From contig QCQA01000005.1 of assembly GCA_003212335.1 (NCBI GenBank), positions 1 through 64,000 of the forward strand: a DNA stretch of 64,000 nucleotides, read 5' to 3'. Positions 19,236-35,363 of the stretch are shown here, one piece after another. Below the pieces are notes generated by a model. That model was not told the origin of the DNA. It ran no database searches and saw only the letters and a list, made by a program, of their open reading frames with translations. Every line of letters starts with the position of its first letter. The stretch's first letter is position 1. This DNA is from SAR86 cluster bacterium AG-447-A08 (GTDB lineage Bacteria; Pseudomonadota; Gammaproteobacteria; Magnimaribacterales; Magnimaribacteraceae). A program made the position numbers and the translations under genes.

Positions 19236-19355
19236 ATGAAAAAAATAGAAAAAACAGCAAAAAAAGTGACCGAAGTAATACTACCTACTCTCTATTTAGC
19301 TCCCATGTTTCTTGGGGCTTATGGTTTTATATCACTTGTGCAGTGGACTAGTTAA
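19236..19355 (+). CDS. small membrane protein, 39 residues
   Basis: A short reading frame with a basic, lysine-rich N-terminus (MKKIEKTAKKVTEVILP) followed by one hydrophobic helix (LYLAPMFLGAYGFISLV) and the ending QWTS. This is the layout of a single-pass inner-membrane microprotein. It fills the only larger gap between two genes, and its TAA overlaps the stop of the convergent 145-residue gene by 3 bases, the same tail-to-tail packing as established genes in this window. No clear ribosome-binding site is visible. I do not recognise it and it could be chance. Confidence 0.5.
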   Translation: MKKIEKTAKKVTEVILPTLYLAPMFLGAYGFISLVQWTS

Positions 19356-19789
19356 CCTTCTTGTTGTTGTAACATTCCTATAAGGTCGCTCACTTTTCGC
19401 CTTTGATGCATAGATCTCATTAAATCTATTCCTTCTTTGAGCGAAATCTTGTCCCCCTCTTCTTGAATAGCCTCAAACTGCTTATCAAACATTTCCCTCA
19501 GACTCTGATTATCCTGATCGTACTGATCGATAGTCTTGTTGTCTAAAATTTTGAATTGATCAAGCTCTTTCATGCTTATTGTCGAGTGTTCTCTTAACCA
19601 CTCGATGATGTCATGATTCTCTTTTTTCAAAGACGAACTTGCATCATTTAATTTCAAGGCTGATATAAGTATCAAAGCCCCCCATGAACCCAAACGAGAT
19701 TTTTCATATTCATCATCAATTAAAGGACTAAATCTATTTATAATTTCTTGTGCGGCATTCAGTAGCGCAATGTTGATATCCGGTTTCAT
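19352..19789 (-). CDS. small helical protein of unknown function, possible LvaB-like kinase partner
   Basis: A 145-residue, probably all-helical and acidic protein (INIALLNAAQEIINRFSPLI at the N-terminus, MHQRRKVSDLIGMLQQQEG at the end), with no signal peptide. Its ATG overlaps the TGA of the upstream APH-like kinase gene in an ATGA junction, a strong hint of a stoichiometric complex. In Pseudomonas levulinate catabolism the APH-like kinase LvaA needs a small partner, LvaB, encoded next to it; position and size fit, but I cannot show sequence homology by eye. A DUF6285-type protein is another guess. Last gene of a five-gene operon. Confidence 0.8.
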   Translation of the reverse strand: MKPDINIALLNAAQEIINRFSPLIDDEYEKSRLGSWGALILISALKLNDASSSLKKENHDIIEWLREHSTISMKELDQFKILDNKTIDQYDQDNQSLREMFDKQFEAIQEEGDKISLKEGIDLMRSMHQRRKVSDLIGMLQQQEG

Positions 19790-20790
19790 ATATTTTTTTC
19801 TAAAGTATCTAAGATTATTTCAAGGTGGATATCACCAGGTATCCAAGCTGAGAATAGATTAATAGGATCTATATTTGTACCTGACTTAAATTCATTACCA
19901 GCAGAAATCCATATAGCCATGCCTTTAACGGCTGCAAAAAGTTCCCACCAATTTAGATCGTCTTTGTCTATACTAATATTACTAGTCTTTTCCCATATTT
20001 TTAGTGCATCCTCTCTTTTTAACAAGTAAGCGGGACGATCCTTATCTTGCCAGCTCCATATAGGCGAGAGGGCCCAGCCTAAATCTTCGAGAGGATCACC
20101 TAAATGAGCCATTTCCCAATCGAGAATTCCAGTGATTTTGTTTTCAGAATATAGGAAGTTACCACTCCTATAATCTCCATGTACCATACTTATAGTTTCA
20201 CTTTCCTTAGGAGGGTTTCTATATAGATGTCTTATGCCAGCCTCCAAAATTGGTTCAATTCCTATAGAATCTTCATGTATGATTTTGACCCACTTATCTA
20301 ATTCATTTTTCCAAAAAGGTTGCTCTACCTCTCCAATAAACTCTCTGAAAATATCCTTATCTATTTCTTTTTTTGCTATCTCACCGAGGATAGACCAAAA
20401 CTGCTTACCAAGGTCTACTTCATGAGGGGCATATATATTGGGGGTGAAAGGACTCGCAGCCTCGCCCTTTAATTCTCTCATCAACATAAATGGAGCACCT
20501 AACTTAGAATTTTCTTCTGACATATCTATCAGAATTGGGACAGGAACATTAGACTCTTGAAATGCAGAATAAGCTAGGTATTCAGTTTTTTGCTCTGTCT
20601 CGATCAAAGAGCTATCTTGAGAAAGTCTGAGAACCAATCTTTCTTCATTATCAGAATTATCCTTAACAATTATCTTATAGGTCTCTCTGCTTGCTCCACC
20701 AAAAATTCTTTCAAAAGAAATTAATGAGAAATCTTTTTTTTGAAACTCTGAATAGTAAGCAAGGAATGCAGAAGACAGATCTTGGGACAT
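19786..20790 (-). CDS. APH/ACAD10-type phosphotransferase (acyl-CoA hydroxyl kinase-like)
   Basis: Aminoglycoside-phosphotransferase-fold kinase of 334 residues. Catalytic loop HGDYRSGN is at 204-211 and the metal-binding DWE at 224-226 followed by LGDP. The N-terminal lobe has a nucleotide-binding loop FGGASRETYKI near residue 30. This subgroup, related to the kinase domain of ACAD10/ACAD11 and to LvaA, phosphorylates hydroxyls of hydroxyacyl-CoAs rather than antibiotics. It lies 3 bases after the upstream unknown gene and overlaps the small downstream gene by 4, inside an operon with a P450. A resistance role is unlikely. Confidence 0.88.
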   Translation of the reverse strand: MSQDLSSAFLAYYSEFQKKDFSLISFERIFGGASRETYKIIVKDNSDNEERLVLRLSQDSSLIETEQKTEYLAYSAFQESNVPVPILIDMSEENSKLGAPFMLMRELKGEAASPFTPNIYAPHEVDLGKQFWSILGEIAKKEIDKDIFREFIGEVEQPFWKNELDKWVKIIHEDSIGIEPILEAGIRHLYRNPPKESETISMVHGDYRSGNFLYSENKITGILDWEMAHLGDPLEDLGWALSPIWSWQDKDRPAYLLKREDALKIWEKTSNISIDKDDLNWWELFAAVKGMAIWISAGNEFKSGTNIDPINLFSAWIPGDIHLEIILDTLEKNI

Positions 20791-20793
20791 AAG

Positions 20794-21882
20794 CTAGCGA
20801 TCTAATAAATCTTCAAAGCCACTTGGAGCGTGAGGGCCTATCAAAAGTTGTTCCAAAGCTCCAATACCCTTAATTTTCGATTGATTCTCCGATAATTCAA
20901 ATTCACAAATAGCTTGAATATGTAAAAAAGGAGGATCATGAGGATCTTCACTGAGATCATAGAAATCATATAAAGACTGTTTTTCTCCGTGAAACTGGCC
21001 GTGACCCCATTCTGGATGCATATACCCCAGTCCACACATGTAGATATGATATTTAGGAGTGAGATTCCAGACTACTTCAGTGCCATCTCGTTTAAGGGCA
21101 GAAAATTCTGCTTTAGCAATTCTTCTTGTGCCTTCTTTGTAATGAATTTCTTTTTTTAAATCAAACAACCTTTCACTTAAATCTTCTTTTTGCTGAACAC
21201 AATGGCTATTGGTTGCTATTCCTGCCTCATCATCAACGAAATAAAAATGGGAAGATTGATCAAAAAAATTAGCTGGAGCCCATAACCAATAAAATTGAGG
21301 TAATTTCAGAGGAGGGACGATTTGGTTATCTGGAGCACCTACAGGTCTTATGCCCCATGATCTGTCACGCGTACCCTGATAATTTTCTTTTGATAAATTT
21401 AATGAGTTGCTCTTAAATTTTATGTTGCCGGTCCAATTACCATGCTGAGTCATTCTAGTAGAATCCATATAGATTCTTGGACCATTCTTAAGAGTCATTC
21501 TTGGTTCTTCCATTGGCTCAAAGCGGCCAGTAAAAGATATATCTGCAAATATATCTTTCTCTTTATCATCAACAATAATCCTTAACTCTCTTAAAGGCTT
21601 AATAATTTCAATTCTAAAAGACCCTACTTCTGTATTCATCCTTTCATGATCTAGTACATCTGAGTATCTAAAATTGTGCTGAATGCCATCTGTTACAAAA
21701 ATAAAACTAGCATCTTTTAAGTTTAGATTTGGGTAAACACAAAAGGCAGCTCCAAAAAAAATGGTTCCGTCTTCGTTGTAACCGTTAAAGAAATATCGAT
21801 CATAAAAATTTCTTTCAGTTCCAACTTCAGCAATTGGAGTAGGTAACTGGTGAATCGGAAAATCGTCGCCTTCTGAGATCAT
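20794..21882 (-). CDS. uncharacterised protein, possibly lipocalin-like AttH/CrtC fold (DUF7064/7065-like)
   Basis: I recognise this only as a type commonly found beside P450s and acyl-CoA enzymes. The 362 residues are rich in strands and aromatic residues: EVGTERNFYDRYFFNGYNE near the N-terminus, a central GTRDRSWGIRPVG around 200, and a late MHPEWGHGQFHGEK. The RDRSWG motif recurs in proteins with two tandem lipocalin-like barrels as in AttH and carotenoid 1,2-hydratase; that fold assignment is inference. No signal peptide. It begins immediately after the P450 stop, without any gap. Confidence 0.75.
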   Translation of the reverse strand: MISEGDDFPIHQLPTPIAEVGTERNFYDRYFFNGYNEDGTIFFGAAFCVYPNLNLKDASFIFVTDGIQHNFRYSDVLDHERMNTEVGSFRIEIIKPLRELRIIVDDKEKDIFADISFTGRFEPMEEPRMTLKNGPRIYMDSTRMTQHGNWTGNIKFKSNSLNLSKENYQGTRDRSWGIRPVGAPDNQIVPPLKLPQFYWLWAPANFFDQSSHFYFVDDEAGIATNSHCVQQKEDLSERLFDLKKEIHYKEGTRRIAKAEFSALKRDGTEVVWNLTPKYHIYMCGLGYMHPEWGHGQFHGEKQSLYDFYDLSEDPHDPPFLHIQAICEFELSENQSKIKGIGALEQLLIGPHAPSGFEDLLDR

Positions 21883-23121
21883 TTAGATGCTAACCTTTAA
21901 TTCGGAAATTCCAGCCAAAAAGTTTGAAGGGATTCTGACAGGATCAGAGGTGGAATGAATATTAGGGTAACGACTCAAAAGTTCTTCAAATAGAATTCTT
22001 ATTTGCATATGCCCCAATCTATTGCCTAAACATAGATGCTCGCCAGCTCCAAAAGCTAGATGCTTCTTTGCATTTACCCTATCCACCTTGAATAAATCTC
22101 CGTCAGTAAAGACATCTTCATCTCTATTTGCTGAGCCGTACCACATAACAACCTTATCACCTGCTTTGATATCTTGACCTCTAATATTGGTATCTTTGGT
22201 TGCTGTCCTTCTAAAATAAATGACAGAAGTTACCCATCTCAACATTTCGTCAGTAGCATTAGAAATGAGTGAAGGATCCTTGAGAAGTTTTTCTCTTTCT
22301 TCGGGATTCTCAGTTAATGCCATTAGTCCACCTGTAAGAGTGTTTCTAGTCGTTTCATTTCCAGCTATAACCATAAGCAAAAAGAAACCATCTAGTAATT
22401 CCGGTGGAAGCTCTCCTCCTTCAATTTTTGTATTGGCTACAACACTCATGAGATCATCGGTAGGATTTTGTCTCCTTTCCTCAATCATATCTCTACCCAT
22501 TTTGAACAGTTCCATGTAGTTAACCCATATTTGGAATGAATTGTTGGGATCTTGCTGAATTGATGCATCGGTAAGGTTGTTAACTAAGTCCCTTATTTTA
22601 GGTCTTTCAGATTCTGGGATTCCCATCATTTCACATAGTACCCAAAGCGGTAATTGTTCCGATATCTCAGTTACAAAGTTGAACTCACCTTTATCTTCAA
22701 CATTTTCTAGTAGTTCTCTTATTTTAGCTCTCATATCAACTTCTAGCGCTTTAATTGCTTTAGGCGTAAAACTGGGAGCTACCATTTTTCTATAAATTTG
22801 ATGATCTGGAGGATCCATACCTATCATGTTACCTACTATGGCAGCTACAGCTGCTGGATCGACTACTTCAGGGTCTCCCATTGACATCAAATGGCCACCC
22901 ACTGCGGAAGAAAATGTTAGAGGATCTTTAGAGACTCTAACAATATCTTCATGCTTGGTGAGAGCCCAAAAGCCTGGCTCAAAATCTAAACTCTCTTCGT
23001 GCCAATATATTGGAGCTTCTTTTCTAAGTCTTTTAAAAAGATCAAATGGTTGACCATTGATAAATGTTTCCCATTTATCCAACTCACATATTTGACCTAT
23101 GTCATAAATGGGTTTGGGCAT
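21883..23121 (-). CDS. cytochrome P450
   Basis: Soluble bacterial class I P450 of 412 residues. The haem-ligand cysteine is residue 364 in AFGAGEHLCLGNRLG, the oxygen-activating I-helix reads AGNETT at 253-258, and the ExxR pair is E292/R295. It hydroxylates an unknown substrate, needing ferredoxin and reductase partners not encoded here. The general look is of CYP families acting on steroids, terpenes or alkyl chains, but the family cannot be assigned by eye. It starts 5 bases after the peroxiredoxin gene and is followed directly by three genes of likely shared pathway. Confidence 0.95.
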   Translation of the reverse strand: MPKPIYDIGQICELDKWETFINGQPFDLFKRLRKEAPIYWHEESLDFEPGFWALTKHEDIVRVSKDPLTFSSAVGGHLMSMGDPEVVDPAAVAAIVGNMIGMDPPDHQIYRKMVAPSFTPKAIKALEVDMRAKIRELLENVEDKGEFNFVTEISEQLPLWVLCEMMGIPESERPKIRDLVNNLTDASIQQDPNNSFQIWVNYMELFKMGRDMIEERRQNPTDDLMSVVANTKIEGGELPPELLDGFFLLMVIAGNETTRNTLTGGLMALTENPEEREKLLKDPSLISNATDEMLRWVTSVIYFRRTATKDTNIRGQDIKAGDKVVMWYGSANRDEDVFTDGDLFKVDRVNAKKHLAFGAGEHLCLGNRLGHMQIRILFEELLSRYPNIHSTSDPVRIPSNFLAGISELKVSI

Positions 23122-23126
23122 ATGTT

Positions 23127-23609
23127 TTAGAGTTGCTCTAGTATTGTTTCAGCGGAACTTACATCGAGACCAGGACCTGATTCAACGTTTAAAACTGATA
23201 CAACACCATCATCTATTATCATGGCATATCTTTGAGATCTTGTACCAAGACCAAAACCACTTCCATCCATCTCTAACCCTATAGCTGCAGTAAATTCTCC
23301 ATTACCGTCGGATAGCATTAAAACATCTTCTCCAACATTTCTATCTTCACCCCATGCTTTCATTACAAAGGGATCATTTACAGAAACACAAGCAACTATA
23401 TCGACACCTTTTTCTTTCAGATCTTTATTTTTATCTAAAAAACCTGGAAGATGTTGAGCGCTGCATGTAGGAGTAAAAGCTCCTGGAACAGCAAAAAGAA
23501 CAATCTTCTTTCCCGATGATAGTTCACTTAAAGAAACGGGTTTTGGTCCCTCCGCAGTCATTGTTGTTAATCCTACTGTAGGTAAAGTATCTCCAACTTG
23601 TATTGTCAT
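23127..23609 (-). CDS. peroxiredoxin, Prx5-type
   Basis: Thiol peroxidase of 160 residues. The peroxidatic cysteine is C49 in the motif PGAFTPTCSAQHLPG. A second Cys (IVACVSVND) lies downstream in the usual Prx5 context, and the C-terminus carries RSQRYAMIIDDGVV. The start at ATG 23609 is chosen because a strong AGGAG lies 7-11 bases upstream; a longer frame to 23645 lacks this. It heads the operon with the P450 and may protect against uncoupled oxygen reduction products. It probably reduces alkyl hydroperoxides with glutathione or glutaredoxin. Confidence 0.93.
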   Translation of the reverse strand: MTIQVGDTLPTVGLTTMTAEGPKPVSLSELSSGKKIVLFAVPGAFTPTCSAQHLPGFLDKNKDLKEKGVDIVACVSVNDPFVMKAWGEDRNVGEDVLMLSDGNGEFTAAIGLEMDGSGFGLGTRSQRYAMIIDDGVVSVLNVESGPGLDVSSAETILEQL

Positions 23610-23633
23610 TTTCTCTCCTTTATAAAAAATACC

Positions 23634-23639
23634 ATTATA
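23634..23639 (-). promoter_or_regulatory. candidate -10 box for peroxiredoxin-P450 operon
   Basis: Minus-strand TATAAT at 23639-23634 lies 24 bases before the peroxiredoxin ATG and just upstream of its AGGAG site. The -35 region is weak at normal spacing, so an activator may be needed. Confidence 0.4.
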
Positions 23640-23654
23640 GGCCAAGAATTAATT

Positions 23655-23682
23655 TTGATGCGAGTCAAAGAGGTGTTATACT
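23655..23682 (+). promoter_or_regulatory. sigma-70 promoter for TolC-like gene
   Basis: TTGATG at 23655-23660 and TATACT at 23677-23682 with a 16-base spacer. Initiation near 23689 would give a short leader before the ATG at 23701 or the alternative ATG at 23710. Confidence 0.55.
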
Positions 23683-23692
23683 AGAGTAACAC
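23673..23692. promoter_or_regulatory. inverted repeat over the -10 box, possible operator
   Basis: GTGTTA at 23673-23678 and TAACAC at 23687-23692 form a perfect inverted repeat with an 8-base centre. It covers the -10 box and start point of the TolC-like promoter, between that gene and the divergent peroxiredoxin operon. A dimeric repressor could bind here. No T-tract follows, so it is not a terminator. Confidence 0.45.
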
Positions 23693-23700
23693 ACCTTATA

Positions 23701-25044: not shown

Positions 25045-26169
25045 ATGATATATACATCGAAAACCTTCCTGAGGCTTCTAGCATCATTATCTATAACCTC
25101 TTGTTTTTTATTCTTAAGCTTTTTTTCCTTTTCTTCTGAACTTAAAGAAGGTGTTCTTAGAACTCCTGATGATAGGTTTGAAAATCTTGTTGATTATCCG
25201 TTTCAAGCTAACTATATGATGATAGATGGGCTAAGAATCCATTATCTTGATGAAGGACCTAAAGACGCAGATCCTATTGTTCTTTTTCACGGAGAACCAA
25301 CCTGGAGTTACTTATTTAGAAAAATGATACCTGTCTTTACAGAAGCAGGATATAGAGTAATTGTTCCAGACATGGTGGGTTTCGGTAAATCTGATAAGTT
25401 TGAATCTAAGTTCGACTACAGCTACCTGCATCATATCGAGGTCATGAAGGAACTTGTTCAAAGATTAGAGCTTACAAATGCAACTCACTTTGGCCAGGAC
25501 TGGGGTGGCCTTGTAGGTCTGAGGGTTGTTGCAGAAATGCCCGATAGATTTTCGCATGTAGTTGTTTCAAATACCGGAATGGTTGCAGGAGAAGGTATGA
25601 GAGCATGGTTCACTCAACGCATGATGGAACTAGCTGTCTGGTGGAATGGGCCGATTACATTTGAAGAACTTAAGACAGCGGCAAGAGGAGCACTTAATTC
25701 TAAAAATCCTTCTGCCAATGATGGAATTTCGATGTTTACTAAATGGATTGCACACTCCTATTATTCAGAAGATATGGACATAGTGGGAATCATTGAAACC
25801 TTTGGAAGGATAACTCTTTCAGAAGAAGAGAGAAGAGCTTATGAAGCACCCTACCCTAATGGAAAATATAAGGCAGGGGCTCATGTTTGGCCTTATCTAA
25901 TACCCACACAACTGCAGGAAAATGAAAAGTACTGGAAAGAAGTTTTAGATAAGTGGGAAAAACCTTTCCTTGTCGCTTTTGGAGGGGAAGAAAGAATTAC
26001 TATAAGAATGAAAGATGATTTTACAAATCGAATTCCCAATCCAACAGTAATAACCTTAGGGGGTGCTGGACACTTTGTACAGGAAGAAGTCGGACCTGAA
26101 TTAGCTCAAATTATCATAGATTTTGTAGAAGGCAGAGAAGTTACAGATTTAGTGGCTTCAAGAAATTAG
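25045..26169 (+). CDS. exported haloalkane dehalogenase-like alpha/beta hydrolase (HLD-I type)
   Basis: Alpha/beta-hydrolase closest in motifs to haloalkane dehalogenase subfamily I, which includes DhlA: HGEPTWSYLFRKM at 82-94, nucleophile Asp152 followed by halide-binding Trp153 in GQDWGG, and catalytic His343 in GAGHFVQEE. The third catalytic residue, Asp in subfamily I, aligns with Glu316 (GGEERIT). The first 31 residues form a hydrophobic signal sequence, unusual for this mostly cytosolic family. It would hydrolyse carbon-halogen bonds or, if diverged, epoxides or esters. It begins directly at the TolC-like stop. Confidence 0.85.
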   Translation: MIYTSKTFLRLLASLSITSCFLFLSFFSFSSELKEGVLRTPDDRFENLVDYPFQANYMMIDGLRIHYLDEGPKDADPIVLFHGEPTWSYLFRKMIPVFTEAGYRVIVPDMVGFGKSDKFESKFDYSYLHHIEVMKELVQRLELTNATHFGQDWGGLVGLRVVAEMPDRFSHVVVSNTGMVAGEGMRAWFTQRMMELAVWWNGPITFEELKTAARGALNSKNPSANDGISMFTKWIAHSYYSEDMDIVGIIETFGRITLSEEERRAYEAPYPNGKYKAGAHVWPYLIPTQLQENEKYWKEVLDKWEKPFLVAFGGEERITIRMKDDFTNRIPNPTVITLGGAGHFVQEEVGPELAQIIIDFVEGREVTDLVASRN

Positions 26170-33885: not shown

Positions 33886-34155
33886 ATGAAATTGAAAGAA
33901 TTAAAGCAATTAATTGAAGGCTGTCATGTGGAAGACCTCAACAATGAGCTTGAGGCTATTGTAATATCTAAAGAAAATAAGATCTTCAAGACGGACAGCA
34001 TCAGGGTAGATACAGACTCCGGAAGAATAATTATAGCTACACAAGATTCAGAGCAGTTCAAACTAAATAAGCTTAACGCAGATAAAGAAATGGAATTTGC
34101 TAAAAAAATGCTCTCGATAAAGTCTGTTGAAACTGAAAAGGGTCTAAACCACTAA
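33886..34155 (+). CDS. small protein of unknown function, 89 residues
   Basis: I do not recognise this gene. It is a charged alpha/beta protein ([25 protein letters not shown] at the N-terminus, [20 protein letters not shown] at the C-terminus) with one cysteine, no signal peptide and no membrane segment. It has its own candidate promoter with a palindrome, and lies 45 bases after DUF3501 in the same direction. It ends in a 4-base convergent overlap with the next gene. Codon use is like its neighbours. Confidence 0.75.
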
Positions 34156-35363
34156 TCTGCATATTTATTTAACTCTTCCTTGGCAATAGTCCTTAAGTGC
34201 ACTTCGTCAGGACCATCTCCAATTCTCAGATATCTGATTGAGCTATATAAGCTTGCTAGGGGAGTGTCTTGAGAAACACCGGCTCCACCATGTATCTGAA
34301 TTGCCCTCTCAATAACTCTTACTGCCATACTGGGTACTTCTACTTTTGGCTGTGCAATCTCGCTTTTTGCTTTCTTATTTCCCAGAGTGTCCATCATATA
34401 GGCAGCCTTTAATGTTAGGAGTCTACACATTTCAATTTCGTTACGGCATTTAGCTATAACGTCGTAGTTACCTCCTAATTCAGCAAGTGCTTTCCCAAAA
34501 GCCTTCCTAGAAGAAGCTCTTTTACATAGCAATTCAAGAGCAACTTCTGCAGCACCTATAATTTTCATACAATGATGTATACGACCTGGACCTAACCTGC
34601 CTTGAGCTATTTCGAAACCCCTACCCTCACCCAGTATCATATTTTCTTTAGGAACCCTTACGTTCTCGAAAATCAAGTGAGCGTGACCATTTGGCGCGTG
34701 GTCTGAACCATACACTGTTAGCATTCTTTTTAAGCTAATTCCGGGAGTATCTTTTGGGACAATTATCTGGGATTGCCTTTGATGTTTAGGGGCATCAGGA
34801 TTTGAAACTCCCATGAAAATCATGAATTCACAATCGGGTCTACCATATCCAGAAGTCCACCACTTCTCACCATTAAGAACATAATCATCTCCATCTCTCT
34901 TTATGGAGCTAGCGATATTTGTAGCATCAGAAGAAGCAACATTTGGCTCTGTCATAGCGAAAGCAGAACGTATTTTTCCTTGTAATAAAGGTTCAAGCCA
35001 TTTGTCTTTTTGATAATCACTACCATATTTATCAAGTACTTCCATATTGCCTGCATCAGGAGCAGAAGAATTGAAAACTTCTGAAGTCCAACCAACACCC
35101 ATCATTTCAGCAAGAGGTGCAAACTCTAAATTTGTAAGCCCGTATCCTAAATCTCCAGTTAGAGAAAAGTTCCAAAGACCTTGCTCTCTTGCTTCTTGCT
35201 TAAGTTCAGTTAAAACTTCAGGTACCTGCCAAGGATTTCCTGAATCTCGAAAGCCAGCCATGGCTGAATCGTACTCTTTCTCTCTGGGTCTGATTTTCTG
35301 TTCTATAAAATTAGAAACAAGATTAATCAGTTCTTTTGTTTTTTTTGTGTGTTCAAAGTTCAT
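34152..35363 (-). CDS. acyl-CoA dehydrogenase, ACAD10/ACAD11-like
   Basis: FAD enzyme of 403 residues resembling the dehydrogenase domain of ACAD10/11 and LvaC. Motifs: [15 protein letters not shown] around 136-150, [34 protein letters not shown], and the C-terminal [39 protein letters not shown]. The DGPDEVH tail replaces the usual YEGT glutamate region and marks this subgroup, which in the Lva pathway removes phosphate from a phosphoacyl-CoA. No kinase domain is fused; a suitable kinase gene lies 13 kb away. Substrate unknown. Confidence 0.93.

Follow-up and report, generated by a model that had tools for sequence, protein, structure and literature searches.

A stretch of 64,000 nucleotides from the SAR86 cluster bacterium AG-447-A08 (contig QCQA01000005.1, positions 1 to 64,000; hereafter the window) carries a compact five-gene operon on its minus strand, and sequence comparisons make it probable that this operon serves an oxygen-linked, ATP-dependent dehydration of a hydrophobic alcohol of sterol or isoprenoid type, by way of a kinase and a lyase. 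Its genes, beginning with the first of the operon, and the stretch ahead of them are as follows (window coordinates).

23610..23700, minus strand: intergenic stretch separating the divergent PRX and TolC genes; presumed, from position, to hold the promoter
23127..23609, minus strand: PRX, peroxiredoxin (Redoxin PF08534), the operon's first gene; from Pfam, ribosome-binding site and conservation in SAR86
21883..23121, minus strand: P450, cytochrome P450; from Pfam and PDB comparison
20794..21882, minus strand: PSL, Rv3169-family protein, homologue of 25-phosphosteroid lyase; from NCBIfam and a PDB match
19786..20790, minus strand: KIN, APH-fold kinase carrying the catalytic motifs HGD and DWE; from Pfam, motifs and tree
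19352..19789, minus strand: SP145, small all-helical protein of an unnamed family, probable obligate kinase partner; from linkage to KIN and structure prediction

A conserved operon

An earlier, sequence-only reading of the window had described five gap-free minus-strand genes, the last two overlapping by ATGA, and this description was borne out. Open reading frames for a peroxiredoxin, a P450, an Rv3169-family protein, an APH-type kinase and a 145-residue protein follow each other at distances of 0-5 nt (PRX-P450 5 nt, P450-PSL 0 nt, PSL-KIN 3 nt), and KIN and SP145 share 4 nt (ATGA). Pfam matches Redoxin, p450 and APH among the encoded proteins, PSL and SP145 being without a match. The same gene order, again with next to no spacing, is found at 26 loci of the window's SAR86 family (f1), across which identity falls as low as 52% for the lyase and 32% for the small protein; the packing is therefore not a matter of chance. 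The P450 is 72-95% identical across this family, PRX stands at the same place in 25 of the 26 loci (the contig of the 26th stops short of it), and the position of the operon between ParE and TolC is conserved. The PRX reading frame as listed began at TTG 23645, but the ribosome-binding site AAGGAG that precedes the ATG at 23609 favours the latter start. In a promoter and terminator scan of the operon region, matches, the promoter-like ones included, were no commoner than chance.

A phosphate lyase homologue beside the kinase

PSL had been labelled an unknown, lipocalin-like protein. No family comparison supported that label. PSL is instead a member of the Rv3169 / 25-phosphosteroid-lyase family, scoring 344 bits against the NCBIfam model Rv3169_fam (NF053593), for which the cut-off is 150. 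The sole kind of solved relative returned by phmmer is 25-phosphosteroid lyase (PDB 9fzn, E 1e-38, residues 2-229). PSL contains the motif GTRDRSWG, with Asp173, corresponding to the pattern G-x-R-D-R-S-W-G of the solved 25-phosphosteroid lyase, and the motif Asp is invariant in 12 of 12 aligned diverse relatives. A second deposit, 9g4c, differs from 9fzn by an Asp to Asn change within this motif, from which I read Asp173 as the probable catalytic residue. PSL is thus a homologue of a phosphate lyase, and the phosphate-eliminating step would then be encoded beside the kinase. With such a homologue in place there is no need for the distant acyl-CoA dehydrogenase (ACAD) at 34152-35363, which the sequence-only reading had proposed as the last enzyme of the route.

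Other SAR86 families and numerous Proteobacteria likewise have the lyase and kinase genes next to each other. In the lyase tree the lyases of SAR86 families f1 and f3 form one clade (SH-aLRT 99), and the kinases with which they are paired fall into different clades of the kinase tree, so that one lyase lineage appears with two kinases inside SAR86. Judged from these trees, the lyase retains a kinase partner even where the kinase type switches. In f3, a gene for a CIA30-domain protein precedes the lyase (L076:5463-6002), and one for a START/polyketide-cyclase-like protein follows the kinase (L076:8171-8554). One lyase gene, in genome G039 (L044:5839-6937), is broken by two in-frame stops (TAG, TAA) and is probably a pseudogene or a sequencing error. 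The Rv3169 family is itself related to DUF7064/DUF7065, since a distant paralogue in the window's own genome matches both; this paralogue (contig C10, L256:5089-6102) adjoins a luciferase-like monooxygenase and overlaps QueG.

The kinase and its probable small partner

The identity of KIN as an APH/ACAD11-like kinase, proposed from sequence alone, stands. Pfam assigns it to APH, it retains the HGD and DWE motifs, which are invariant in the alignment, and a KIN-clade profile finds 3dxp (4e-22) and the ACAD11 kinase domain (3e-20) as its best solved relatives, followed by 9o56, Rv3168 (3ats) and 9fsg (5e-12). The further placement of KIN as LvaA-type did not hold up. Three clades make up the kinase tree, one partnered by SP145, one partnered by DUF6285 and one of f3 kinases, and KIN lies outside the DUF6285-partnered clade (separate clades, support 99/99 and 100/99). 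The lyase-linked kinases of SAR86 f3, together with those of three f2 genomes, are instead clearly nearest to 9fsg (2.5e-55), with Rv3168 at 1e-46.

SP145 is predicted to be all-helical, and its structure model has four main helices (pLDDT 81). It has no match in Pfam, NCBIfam or PDB, and a fold search with the model gave nothing below E 0.4. An iterated search did recover relatives in Alphaproteobacteria, Gammaproteobacteria and Desulfobacteria, directly 3' of KIN-clade kinases. The partner is present in 35 of 35 named KIN-clade loci (33 scored adjacent, two with merely an overlapping reading-frame call) and follows the kinase in 32 of 32 additional genome loci, for a total of 67/67, although the two sets may have species in common. 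It is absent from all 19 other kinase matches examined (9 of f3 type, 10 others). Because SP145 always follows the KIN clade and never the other lyase-linked kinases, its probable role is that of an obligate partner to the kinase, as a member of an unnamed family, and physical contact between the two proteins would be expected.

LvaB is the small partner gene beside LvaA, and the sequence-only reading had cast SP145 in the same part. A small, all-helical protein strictly linked to the kinase is indeed what was found; its assignment to DUF6285 is another matter. PF19802 (DUF6285) is matched neither by SP145 nor among the 25 families listed for 16 SAR86 members at E 10. Aligned by hhalign, SP145 and DUF6285 share 99 co-linear columns with a score of 25.0 (100 block shuffles gave no more than 20.2, reversed profiles 16.9/18.2), but the probability is only 22%. 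Like SP145, DUF6285 follows or is fused to APH-type kinases; its own structure model is of low confidence (pLDDT 65). Since PF19802 gave no match and the profile similarity is weak, I did not accept SP145 as a DUF6285 member and regard it as LvaB-like by position, with a profile similarity that is suggestive. Relatives of genome G210 (L094, L135-L151) have kinase frames of ~470 aa and longer that end, C-terminally, in DUF6285, which suggests kinase-DUF6285 fusions.

The P450 and a proposed reaction sequence

The best PDB match of the P450 is a reconstructed CYP125 ancestor (CYP125MRCA, 333 bits), ahead of CYP126 (263 bits) and natural CYP125 enzymes (216-224 bits), with CYP153-like enzymes and CYP124 among further matches. 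The sequence-only reading had counted a P450 as part of the operon and proposed a survey for recurrence. The set of P450, lyase, kinase and small protein does recur, in the 26 SAR86 loci and at least twice outside SAR86: in L324, where a 41% identical P450 stands in the same order 3 nt ahead of the lyase, and in L194 (Parvibaculum sedimenti), where a 36% identical P450 stands 350 nt ahead of it. A third locus, L275, has a 34% identical P450 1 nt ahead of the kinase, with a divergent lyase.

In the sequence of reactions that I propose, KIN and SP145 would phosphorylate a probably tertiary hydroxyl group of a hydrophobic molecule of sterol or isoprenoid type, and PSL would eliminate phosphate from the resulting phosphoester to leave an alkene. 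The P450 might install the hydroxyl, in place of the anaerobic pathway's molybdenum C25 hydroxylase, or it might act later on the activated allylic or terminal carbon, as CYP125-type enzymes do at C26. The peroxiredoxin would probably deal with peroxide from P450 uncoupling. The order of reactions, the class of substrate and the role of the peroxiredoxin are my suggestions from homology and gene order.

Substrate and alternative explanations

A sterol or isoprenoid side chain is a plausible substrate from these comparisons, and SAR86 is listed among predicted steroid degraders in a survey (PMC4810484). Several points weigh against the proposal. KIN is not the nearest relative of 25-hydroxysteroid kinase among APH kinases, 3dxp and ACAD11 outranking 9fsg in the profile comparison, so that another substrate may be favoured; 9fsg is itself presumed to be 25-hydroxysteroid kinase because of its length and the deposit numbers next to it. 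The P450 is better seen as an optional module, being adjacent in just 3 of 47 non-SAR86 loci with a KIN-type kinase (L324, L194 and L275). In the 88%-complete assembly, PF00890 (FAD_binding_2) has two full-length matches, both of ordinary SdhA/NadB size, with no obvious 3-ketosteroid dehydrogenase, and HsaD has no match over cut-off; the neighbourhood of the best HsaD match gives no support for a steroid-ring cluster. A steroid substrate is thus without support from ring-degradation genes, and none of the operon's proteins has a known activity. Classical steroid-ring degradation in this assembly was accordingly set aside as a candidate. Two Rieske oxygenases on contig C6 are matched, below cut-off, by models for glycine-betaine and aromatic oxygenases.

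The strongest alternative, a sub-case of the same chemistry, has phosphorylation and elimination acting on a hydroxyacyl-CoA or another non-steroid lipid, such as a terpenoid or branched acid. The closeness of KIN to ACAD11-type enzymes, the failure to see steroid-ring genes and the similarity of the P450 to CYP124 and CYP153-like enzymes all speak for it, and I give it a substantial chance, if somewhat below even. What pulls the other way is that PSL shares a clade with f3 lyases adjoining kinases like 25-hydroxysteroid kinase, and that the CYP125 ancestor is the best match of the P450.

A second alternative is the hydroxyacid route of the sequence-only reading, in which KIN and SP145 would act as LvaA and LvaB on a P450-made hydroxyacyl-CoA and the ACAD at 34152-35363 would remove the phosphate. 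This ACAD exists and carries DGPDEVH (RLGPGRI/DGPDEVH type). It stands alone in the window and is 38% identical to the ACAD of a set elsewhere in the genome, on contig C6 (~51.7-54.3 kb; L098:11703-14257), where a DUF6285 protein, an APH kinase and a DGPDEVH-type ACAD lie side by side; by its gene content, that set is the genuine LvaABC-like unit of this genome. Together with the ACAD11 kinase domain among the best solved relatives of KIN and the weak co-linearity of SP145 with DUF6285, the type of the window ACAD and its likeness to that unit's ACAD are what the route has in its favour. I nevertheless consider it improbable. A lyase homologue is already inside the operon, a dedicated kinase-DUF6285-ACAD unit exists elsewhere, and KIN lies outside the DUF6285 clade. 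No ACAD was found within ~6 kb of the KIN-clade kinase in any of 47 non-SAR86 loci, and none in the operon. The lyase and DUF6285 are distributed differently among 121 genomes of the SAR86 order, some of them incomplete: 45 carry both, 22 just the lyase and 11 just DUF6285, and the DUF6285 unit is missing from each of the 14 f2 genomes that have a lyase. The ACAD as last step was therefore rejected, as it does not recur near the kinase and would be superfluous beside the lyase homologue. Of the hydroxyacid route, the phosphorylated-alcohol intermediate is supported, and conversion of an alcohol through a phosphoester to an alkene on a hydrophobic substrate is more likely than the 4-hydroxyacyl-CoA and ACAD version.

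Detoxification or resistance, in which KIN would inactivate a toxic alcohol for further processing by PSL and the P450, is very improbable: the NCBIfam similarity of KIN to APH(3') and macrolide kinases that might suggest it is weak and far below cut-offs, the kinase is strictly linked to lyase and small protein across Proteobacteria, and the operon keeps its chromosomal position between ParE and TolC in SAR86 f1.

Downstream of TolC, the window encodes a haloalkane-dehalogenase-like protein (25045-26169; PRK00870 over cut-off), at a site where the open reading frame varies among SAR86 relatives.

Implications and comparison with known systems

Dehydration of an alcohol by kinase and lyase was previously described in oxygen-free cholesterol degradation. 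That an abundant surface-ocean lineage has this lyase in a conserved operon, together with a P450 and with a kinase from a different clade and its linked small protein, suggests that the chemistry is general. As a tentative generalization, which I hold with less than even confidence, SAR86 and some Alphaproteobacteria possess a cassette for ATP-dependent dehydration that starts with a P450 and employs a two-component kinase (including a new small-subunit family) to convert a hydroxylated sterol or isoprenoid to an alkene. If so, the supposedly anaerobic kinase-lyase chemistry would be a widespread module used with oxygenases as well, and the Rv3169 family, that of Mycobacterium tuberculosis included, would be phosphate lyases. 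The proposal offers a directly testable function for the Rv3169 family and for the unnamed small protein family, and it makes visible the replacement of a kinase beside the same lyase within SAR86.

In Sterolibacterium denitrificans, 25-hydroxysteroid kinase makes a high-energy tertiary phosphoester, a lyase eliminates phosphate to give a delta-24 alkene, and a second hydroxylase then attacks the allylic C26; in 2021 the lyase gene was still unknown, with no candidate near the kinase gene (PMC8449060, PMC11061730). An APH-type kinase, an Rv3169-family lyase and the path from alcohol through phosphoester to alkene are common to that system (PDB 9fzn, 9g2i, 9g4c) and to the one proposed here. 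The SAR86 pair, however, shares one operon with a P450 in a bacterium of the oxygenated ocean, whereas the S. denitrificans hydroxylases are molybdenum enzymes, and KIN is of another clade and has a small partner, whereas 25-hydroxysteroid kinase is reported to be active as a monomer. CYP125 steroid C26 hydroxylases are the nearest solved group to the window P450, yet the top match among them is a reconstructed ancestor.

M. tuberculosis Rv3168-Rv3169 (PDB 3ats) likewise joins a kinase and an Rv3169-family gene in one operon; the pertinent passages of PMC5340868 describe it as consisting of two genes controlled by a TetR regulator and mention neither a P450 nor a small partner. Rv3168 is nearer to the f3 kinases that resemble 25-hydroxysteroid kinase than to the KIN clade. 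With LvaAB(C) of Pseudomonas putida and mammalian ACAD10/ACAD11 the SAR86 operon has in common an APH-fold kinase, a phosphorylated intermediate and later elimination of phosphate (PMC12440821, PMC11342911). Unlike the LvaB-type partner, SP145 is not DUF6285 by Pfam, and whereas an ACAD performs the elimination on an acyl-CoA in those systems, the SAR86 operon has a lyase of another family beside its kinase.

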